DNA of 35,768 nt, from assembly GCA_016777265.1 (NCBI GenBank), contig JADHRU010000003.1, positions 1 to 35,768 on the forward strand, given 5' to 3'. Shown piece by piece: positions 30,158 through 32,483 of the stretch. The stretch comes from Synechococcus sp. BS30m-G31. Its GTDB lineage: Bacteria; Cyanobacteriota; Cyanobacteriia; PCC-6307; Cyanobiaceae. The position numbers were made by a program, and so were the translations under genes. The notes under the pieces were generated by a model. It did no database searches. It had not been told where the DNA came from and saw nothing but the letters and a program-made list of their open reading frames with translations. Positions within the stretch are counted from its first letter, which is position 1, and every line of letters begins with the position of its first letter.

Positions 30158-30226
30158 ACCACGCCAAAGCATTCGGTCGCATCGCCGTTGTCGTGGCACC
30201 CTGAATCCAGACGAGGGGCCGCATCC

Positions 30227-31300
30227 ATGCGGAGGTTCCGACAAAAATCAGCCGTTGTGGTGGTTGTCCTCCTGCTAGCGGGACTCCCAGCGCAAGCGCG
30301 AAAATTAAAAGTAGGCGTCAGCGGTTCCCCACCGTTTGTGATTCAGGCGAACAACTCCTTTCAAGGCATCAGCCTTGATGTTTGGCGGCAGGTCGCTGAG
30401 GACAACGCGCTGGTGTACGACCTCGTGCCGCAGAGCTCGCCGGAGGCCGGCATCGCGGCGGTCGACCAGGGACAGATCGATGTGTTGGTCGGGCCGATCA
30501 GCATCACCCCCCGCCGATTGGCCATGCCAGGGGTCGATTTCACTCAGCCTTACTACCTCGCCAAGTCCGGAGTCTTGCTCCCCCTCGACTCACCCACAGT
30601 CTTTAGCCGCCTCAAGGTGTTCTTCGGCTGGGCTGTGATCTCCTCGCTCTTGATCCTTGTCAAAGTGTTGCTGGTGGTGGGCAGTTTGATTTGGCTTGCT
30701 GAACGTCGCGACAATAGTGAACAGTTTCCGAAACGTTGGCTGCCAGGAATTGCCAGCGGAATGTGGTTTGCCGTCGTCACCCTCACCACCGTGGGTTATG
30801 GCGACAAAGCCCCGATCAGTCGAACAGGCCGAGGCATTACGGCCACATGGATGGTGATCTCTCTGATTGCCGTGTCGTCGTTAACGGCAAGCCTGGCCTC
30901 AGCATTCACCTTGTTTTTCTCCGGAGCGAGAGAAACAAGGATCGGTTCACCCGCTCAACTGCAACATCGTCGGGTGGCCACCATCGAAGGGACCAGTGGG
31001 GTGGAGTTAGCTGAACGAGGCAGCATGCGGGTTCTCAAAACTGAGAATCTGACTCGCGGCATTGAGTTGGTGTTGTCGGAACAAGCAGAAGCACTGATTT
31101 TTGAGCGGCCGGCCATACGGCATTACATCAAACAAAATCCTCACTTGGCCGTTCAGCTGGCGCCCTTCACGCTTGCGGAGGAGACCTATGGGTTCGTGTT
31201 TAAGACAGGGAATCCCCTAAGAAATCCCCTGAACGTGTCGATCTTGCGACTGCAAAGCTCCGGCAAAATTAAATCCATCGCTGATGGACTACTGAATTAG
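30227..31300 (+). CDS. GluR0-type prokaryotic ionotropic glutamate receptor / K+-selective ligand-gated channel
   Basis: Signal peptide; S1 LKVGVSGSPPFV...ISITPRRLAMPGVDFTQPYYLAKSGVL; pore TLTTVGYGDKAP; M3-like SSLTASLASAFT; S2 VATIEGTSGVELAE...ALIFERPAIRHYI. Start at internal ATG 30227. Confidence 0.9.
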   Translation: MRRFRQKSAVVVVVLLLAGLPAQARKLKVGVSGSPPFVIQANNSFQGISLDVWRQVAEDNALVYDLVPQSSPEAGIAAVDQGQIDVLVGPISITPRRLAMPGVDFTQPYYLAKSGVLLPLDSPTVFSRLKVFFGWAVISSLLILVKVLLVVGSLIWLAERRDNSEQFPKRWLPGIASGMWFAVVTLTTVGYGDKAPISRTGRGITATWMVISLIAVSSLTASLASAFTLFFSGARETRIGSPAQLQHRRVATIEGTSGVELAERGSMRVLKTENLTRGIELVLSEQAEALIFERPAIRHYIKQNPHLAVQLAPFTLAEETYGFVFKTGNPLRNPLNVSILRLQSSGKIKSIADGLLN

Positions 31301-31570
31301 TCAGCTAAGGGGACGGTGACGACGAAGCCCTTCCTCCAACAGGTAAGCCGCGAGATTTCCACAACTGCGGCCTTCATCCAGGGCATGGCGCTTCAAATCG
31401 TCCATCACTCCGCGGGGGAGGGTCACGTTGATGCGCTCAGAGCTGGCGGCATCCGCGACCGCTGCAGTCGGGGGAACAGGGGCAGCCTCCCCGAGCCGTT
31501 GCTGTAACTCAAGAACAAGATCCTGAAGAAGTGACACGATTTCGTAACAATAATTACTCAATATTGACAC
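31301..31570 (-). CDS. Ribbon-helix-helix (CopG-like) domain protein
   Basis: ERINVTLPRGVMDDLKRHALDEGRSCGNLAAYLLEEGLRR. GTG start at 31570 (alternative GTG at 31537); convergent and abutting the GluR0 stop. Confidence 0.75.
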   Translation of the reverse strand: MSILSNYCYEIVSLLQDLVLELQQRLGEAAPVPPTAAVADAASSERINVTLPRGVMDDLKRHALDEGRSCGNLAAYLLEEGLRRHRPLS

Positions 31571-31645: not shown

Positions 31646-32248
31646 ATGCGTCCCCTGCCGCTCAAGCTTGCACCCGGCAGTGACCTGCGCCTCAGCCTGG
31701 AAGATTTGGCTCGTCGCGAGGGGATTCAAGGATTCGTACTCAGCGTTGTGGGCAACCTCACACGCGCAGCCTTCCAGTGCCCAGGCCAATCAGAGCCCAC
31801 CGTCTTGGAAGGGGATCTCGAAGTAATCACCCTGAACGGCACGCTCAACCCCGATTCCGTCCATCTTCACCTCAGCCTTTCCGACGGTGCTTGTCAGGTT
31901 TGGGGAGGCCACCTTGAGCCGGGCACCATTGTGCAAAAAGGGGCCGATCTTCTGATCGGTGTTCTTGAGCAACACAAACCGGCGGCGGTTACGACCGTAA
32001 CGGCACCGCGTTTAGAGATTGCTGTGTTGCCAGGATGTCCATGGTGCAGCAGGGCGCTCCGCCTGCTTCGCACCTTGGATCTGCCGCATACCGTGACCAC
32101 CGTGAACGATGACACCACGTTCACGAGCGTTCAGAGCCGTAGTGGGATGGGAACATTTCCGCAGGTGTTCGTCGACGGCACCGTGATCGGTGGCTACGAC
32201 GACCTCACCACGCTGCACGCTGCTGGTGACCTCGAAGCCCTCCGCTAA
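31646..32248 (+). CDS. PPC (DUF296) domain fused to glutaredoxin
   Basis: N-term FVLSVVGNLTRAAFQ...VHLHLSLSDGACQVWGGHLEPGTIV (PPC); C-term IAVLPGCPWCSRALRLLRTLDL...GMGTFPQVFVDGTVIGGYDDLTTL (dithiol glutaredoxin). Confidence 0.88.
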   Translation: MRPLPLKLAPGSDLRLSLEDLARREGIQGFVLSVVGNLTRAAFQCPGQSEPTVLEGDLEVITLNGTLNPDSVHLHLSLSDGACQVWGGHLEPGTIVQKGADLLIGVLEQHKPAAVTTVTAPRLEIAVLPGCPWCSRALRLLRTLDLPHTVTTVNDDTTFTSVQSRSGMGTFPQVFVDGTVIGGYDDLTTLHAAGDLEALR

Positions 32249-32483
32249 CGACTCTGCCGAACTTCCATCGTTCTGGTCGCTCAAACCTTGGTGGTGTCAG
32301 CCCTGGTCCATTCTGGCGACCGGATTGGTCGGAGTGCTCGGCTCCTGGCTGGTCCTGCAACGGCTTTGGATCAGTGTTCCCATTGCCATAGCCGTCGCCC
32401 TGTGGTGGGGACTTTTTCTGGTGGTTGTGCCAAGCGCCTACAAAGCCAGCCTGGAGCAGGACTTAATGGGCCGCAGACCGTGA
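32190..32483 (+). CDS. Small membrane protein (DUF6737-like), start uncertain
   Basis: FWSLKPWWCQPWSILATGLVGVLGSWLVLQRLWISVPIAIAVALWWGLFLVVVP two TM; the start overlaps the PPC-Grx gene, GTG at 32226 is an alternative. Confidence 0.65.
   Translation: MATTTSPRCTLLVTSKPSANDSAELPSFWSLKPWWCQPWSILATGLVGVLGSWLVLQRLWISVPIAIAVALWWGLFLVVVPSAYKASLEQDLMGRRP

Follow-up and report, generated by a model that had tools for sequence, protein, structure and literature searches.

A PPC (DUF296)-glutaredoxin fusion gene of marine Synechococcus and related picocyanobacteria

Related systems

PPC (DUF296) proteins are known from bacteria, archaea and plants; the solved relatives of the PPC domain form trimers. 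The pairing of this domain with a glutaredoxin (Grx) has been known since 2009, when Alves et al. (PMC2679010) described a bacteria-specific DUF296-GRX architecture, its Grx being of the CPYC class, and suggested DNA binding; their main text takes the family no further. No later study of this architecture was found in the literature searched, and none of the titles and abstracts searched assigned a function to bacterial DUF296 or to DUF6737, the family of an adjoining gene. The fusion described here likewise joins DUF296 to a CPYC-class Grx, in the same order, within one bacterial protein. The present analysis adds its distribution, the alternation of Cys and Ser at the second active-site position, two fusion-specific PPC cysteines and an overlap with the DUF6737 gene.

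Several other systems resemble parts of the protein. Stand-alone PPCs (Salmonella 2hx0/2nmu, Vibrio 2p6y, Pyrococcus 2dt4 and Archaeoglobus 2h6l) have the fold and the invariant residues H73, H75, H89, E59 and G93 (fusion numbering) in common with it, but those examined have no equivalents of C45 and C83 and end in a C-terminal tail of their own instead of a Grx. Class I glutaredoxins (E. coli Grx3, 1fov; Synechocystis GrxA, 3qmx) are alike in fold, cis-Pro, GG motif and, for the copy analysed here, the CPxC site. Yeast Grx6 and Grx7 (CSYS/CPYS) match the CPxS site type of the Ser-containing half of the family, although they are eukaryotic and have no PPC domain. The hybrid peroxiredoxin-Grx of Haemophilus (Prx5, 1nm3) is also bacterial, and its C-terminal Grx is likewise attached to the module that it serves, in that case a peroxiredoxin and not a PPC domain.

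Gene and domain organization

The window, that is, the whole stretch of 35,768 nucleotides analysed from Synechococcus sp. BS30m-G31, contains the fusion gene at 31646..32248 on the + strand. As the first-pass annotation had claimed, it is a single open reading frame (ATG to TAA, 200 aa) in which both domains score over the curated Pfam cut-offs: PF03479 (PCC) at residues 2-108 with 74.5 bits against a cut-off of 25 (E=1.1e-20), and PF00462 (glutaredoxin) at residues 125-181 with 43.9 bits against 22.9 (E=2.7e-11). The PPC/PCC domain comprises residues 1-108 (31646..31969), and the PPC motif HLHLSLSDGACQVWGGHLEPG corresponds to residues 73-93. It is followed by a flexible linker of residues ~109-122 (31970..32011), fast-evolving and variable in length among the aligned homologues, and by the Grx domain of residues 123-200 (32012..32245), which carries C131-P-W-C134, cis-Pro172 and GG182-183, all on the + strand. 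The proposed PPC identity of the N-terminal part was thus upheld, but not its size of ~120 aa, the domain having ~108 aa with ~14 aa of linker behind it. Sequence matches in the PDB were PPC proteins for the N-terminal part (2hx0, 2nmu, 2p6y) and glutaredoxins for the C-terminal part (e.g. 2mzc, 1fov). Among NCBIfam models, glutaredoxin-type ones alone matched, each under its cut-off.

An AlphaFold2 monomer model was predicted from 56 window and locus sequences. Mean pLDDT was 93.9, with ~97 for PPC, ~95 for Grx and ~52 for linker residues 111-120, so that both domains are confidently predicted by the model. Their mutual arrangement is not given by it: pTM was 0.56, and PPC and Grx are therefore not fixed relative to each other. 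The best PDB folds found by Foldseek were 2nmu, 2hx0 and 2p6y for the PPC part (2p6y at 1.2 A over 109 columns) and, for the Grx part, glutaredoxin structures.

PPC domain

Residues were compared between 83 distinct fused sequences and 23 stand-alone PPCs of cyanobacteria and relatives. H73, H75 and H89 were invariant in both sets (83/83 and 23/23), and E59 was invariant as well. Two cysteines were confined to the fused sequences. C45 was found in all 83 of them and C83 in 82 (the exception being L108); neither occurred in any of the 23 stand-alone PPCs, which always have Gly at the position of C83. Cysteines at these positions are also lacking in the Burkholderia and Nostoc plasmid PPCs and in the aligned Salmonella and Vibrio structures, and both are retained in Prochlorococcus copies of just 36-44% identity. 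Fused and stand-alone PPCs are further distinguished by N37, P46, K98 and G99, D101 being another fused-specific residue, and the C-terminal tail FxRxxDxxTGYxEL of stand-alone cyanobacterial PPCs has the linker and Grx in its place in the fusion.

Metal binding is plausible in view of the invariance of the three His residues and of an archaeal PPC structure, 2h6l, whose title calls it metal-containing; the fused PPC is a candidate metal-binding module. The presence of the cysteines in PPC only when it is fused to Grx provides a lead that some PPC domains use thiol or glutathione chemistry.

Glutaredoxin domain

C131, P132, P172 and G182 were each present in 83/83 fused sequences and G183 in 81/83. 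The active site (CPWC, residues 131-134, 32036..32047, + strand) follows the family pattern CP[WFY][CS], position 134 being Ser in 42 and Cys in 41 of the 83. A tree of 68 rows was constructed by a quick method with this column left out; on this tree, which has several long branches, the Cys/Ser state changed at least twice by supported branches and four times at the fewest. This alternation indicates that the second Cys is dispensable and that what is conserved is the chemistry of a single catalytic Cys with glutathione (GSH); on these sequences, the conserved Grx chemistry of the fusion family is monothiol. The domain had been annotated as a standard CPWC dithiol glutaredoxin, which fits the window copy and its genus; in the family at large the second Cys by which the dithiol (CPxC) subclass is recognized is not conserved among orthologues. 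The protein also differs from class I glutaredoxins in its fusion-borne Grx and in scoring 55.6 bits, under the 90-bit cut-off of the glutaredoxin 3 equivalog TIGR02181.

A CPxS-type site can be catalytically active, since the CPYS-type yeast ScGrx7 is active with GSH (PMC5382279). The GSH-contact position D185 is relaxed in some fused copies. The missing GSH-contact Lys before CPxC was considered as a sign of inactivity and dropped, because ordinary stand-alone Grx proteins of the same genomes (YTWQxCPFC) are also without it. Separate Grx genes, one CPFC and one CGFS (L003), are present in the genome, so the fusion is not simply the housekeeping Grx.

Neighbouring genes

In marine Synechococcus the gene order is metallophosphatase, glutamate-receptor-type channel, divergent ribbon-helix-helix (RHH) gene, fusion and DUF6737. 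The channel gene of the window (30188-31300, + strand; SBP_bac_3 with Ion_trans_2/Lig_chan) encodes a glutamate-receptor-like potassium channel and is conserved in marine Synechococcus, and the RHH gene (RHH_5 by Pfam; 31301..31570, - strand) is by synteny the usual upstream neighbour there. Alignment of the upstream regions showed no conserved operator in the interval from the RHH gene to the fusion.

The DUF6737 gene (PF20522, 74.6 bits; 32226..32483, + strand) encodes a small, probably membrane, protein, and its start overlaps the stop of the fusion in most carrier loci. In the genus of the window the conserved start is a GTG at 32226, 20 bases before that stop, with a further in-frame GTG upstream at 32190; in other loci the overlap is a 4-base ATGA, GTGA or TTGA. 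This overlap suggests coupled translation, and DUF6737 is likely to be a translationally coupled partner of the fusion. It would be so in part of the family only, since DUF6737 is widespread among cyanobacteria beyond the family and is without a match in the fusion-keeping Prochlorococcus genomes G122, G123 and G153; for the same reasons it was ruled out as a fusion-specific partner.

In several Prochlorococcus-type genomes the fusion adjoins pgsA-like and NAD-epimerase genes, which in the window are located ~8 kb upstream of it, a placement that fits vertical descent. No neighbouring pathway gene was conserved across the whole family.

Proposed function

In the reading that we tentatively favour, at somewhat short of even probability, the PPC part is a scaffold, and a GSH-dependent monothiol glutaredoxin acts in cis on its cysteines or on its ligand. 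The PPC domain, a putative trimer, would bear the conserved three-His site, possibly with a metal, together with the fusion-only C45 and C83. The tethered Grx, acting through its single essential C131 and glutathione, would reduce or (de)glutathionylate the PPC cysteines in cis, or else act on a thiol ligand bound at the PPC site. As a physiological role, the state of the PPC module might thereby be coupled to the cellular glutathione pool. The hosts of the protein dominate ocean photosynthesis. A redox function can be put to the test, given the cysteines confined to the fused form and the absence of a second Grx Cys from about half of the relatives.

A rather unlikely alternative is that PPC is itself an enzyme, or binds a small thiol or a glutathionylated molecule, with Grx supplying the GSH chemistry, and that C45 and C83 shape this site and are not redox targets. 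The invariant His triad and E59 agree with such a site, K98, D101 and the other fused-specific residues suggest that a ligand site has been altered, and in the hybrid Prx5 (1nm3) a Grx is indeed fused to the enzyme that it serves; however, the literature consulted gives no catalytic activity for PPC proteins, and a family-wide neighbouring pathway gene is lacking. Unlikely too is a version in which redox or metal is sensed at a His/Cys site formed by H73, H75, H89, C45 and C83, with the monothiol Grx resetting this site in cis and the signal possibly being relayed through the coupled DUF6737. If that were true, the ocean's most abundant phototrophs would have retained a self-contained switch coupled to glutathione.

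It is likewise unlikely that the protein is a metal or Fe-S carrier, in which a monothiol-like Grx would bind a glutathione-ligated [2Fe-2S] cluster or pass metal to a His/Cys site of the PPC trimer. The second Grx Cys is dispensable, as in cluster-binding glutaredoxins, and the metal-containing title of 2h6l and the combination of an invariant His triad with new cysteines point the same way, but the site is CPxC/S and not of the CGFS class usual for Fe-S transfer, and the genome has a separate CGFS Grx (L003).

A DNA- or nucleoid-associated redox regulator is very improbable, and the suggestion of a DNA-associated PPC in the first-pass annotation found no support: by inspection, the 200-aa sequence has no AT-hook-type motif (RGRP core), and no feature for DNA contact was found in it. 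Although PPC relatives carry 'DNA-binding' as a database name, the link to DNA stems from such names and from the plant AHL proteins, whose DNA binding is by AT-hooks. In favour of this role is that it was proposed for DUF296-GRX proteins by Alves et al. 2009 (PMC2679010).

Distribution and conservation

The fusion was found in the same frame in 19/19 near-complete genomes of the window's genus, and relatives in single-contig genomes were 93-94% identical. Based on an approximate count of strong matches (E of 5e-39 or better) in the 272 genomes of the family, ~240 carry it, many of them single-contig; it is present in most marine Synechococcus, Prochlorococcus and Cyanobium relatives. Among the matches listed in the family the majority cover both domains in one frame, and all nine inspected of those ending after the PPC half continue into Grx behind a longer linker. 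These genome tallies are the independent count; since being fused was the criterion for choosing the 83 homologues, their intact frames do not provide one. Homologues are therefore not two separate proteins, the circumstance that the first-pass annotation had named as pointing to a local artefact. On a single-cell contig (L056) the frame is lost after residue 104. In the remaining ~30/272 genomes, which include single-contig Prochlorococcus, there were no more than weak hits on other Grx or PPC genes, so the fusion is not essential everywhere; some Prochlorococcus-type genomes (G205, G133 and G134) had no PPC match whatsoever.

Compared with L005, dN/dS was 0.021/0.511 for PPC and 0.035/0.488 for Grx, with dN high in the linker. 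Judged by these rates, both domains are under purifying selection and flank a loose linker. An assembly or frameshift artefact joining two genes, which the fragmented assembly of the window (105 contigs, 65% complete) might have brought to mind, is refuted by this conservation in so many genomes, single-contig ones included, and by the selection acting on both domains.

A scan of GTDB contigs with short exact patterns, which distant fusions elsewhere could escape, returned picocyanobacterial fusions, one Planctomycete-labelled contig (L041) and an unrelated glutaredoxin (L058). PPC genes were sporadic in cyanobacteria outside the family, and those inspected had no Grx. The best explanation includes vertical inheritance of the fusion within the picocyanobacteria, the family to which marine Synechococcus, Prochlorococcus and Cyanobium belong. 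A phage or plasmid origin was ruled out, no full-length relative being present among phage records, viral contigs or plasmids.

Contig L041 (PAFA01000044.1) is labelled as the Phycisphaerae MAG MED835. It carries the fusion with the synteny of marine Synechococcus and is picocyanobacterial by both sequence and synteny; binning contamination is probable. The fusion copy L119 (genome G215) has a stop a few residues earlier than usual, and this may be its natural terminus.

Other arrangements of PPC were also noticed. In genome G446 a 648-aa open frame (L073) runs uninterrupted from GlmU (N-acetylglucosamine-1-phosphate uridyltransferase) into PPC, possibly a second kind of PPC fusion or a case of an internal start. 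Two 335-aa open frames (L077 and L139, in G059 and G050) consist of acetyltransferase-like sequence followed in frame by a PPC of the stand-alone type; the PPC gene may begin there at an internal ATG, and both genomes have several PPC paralogues.
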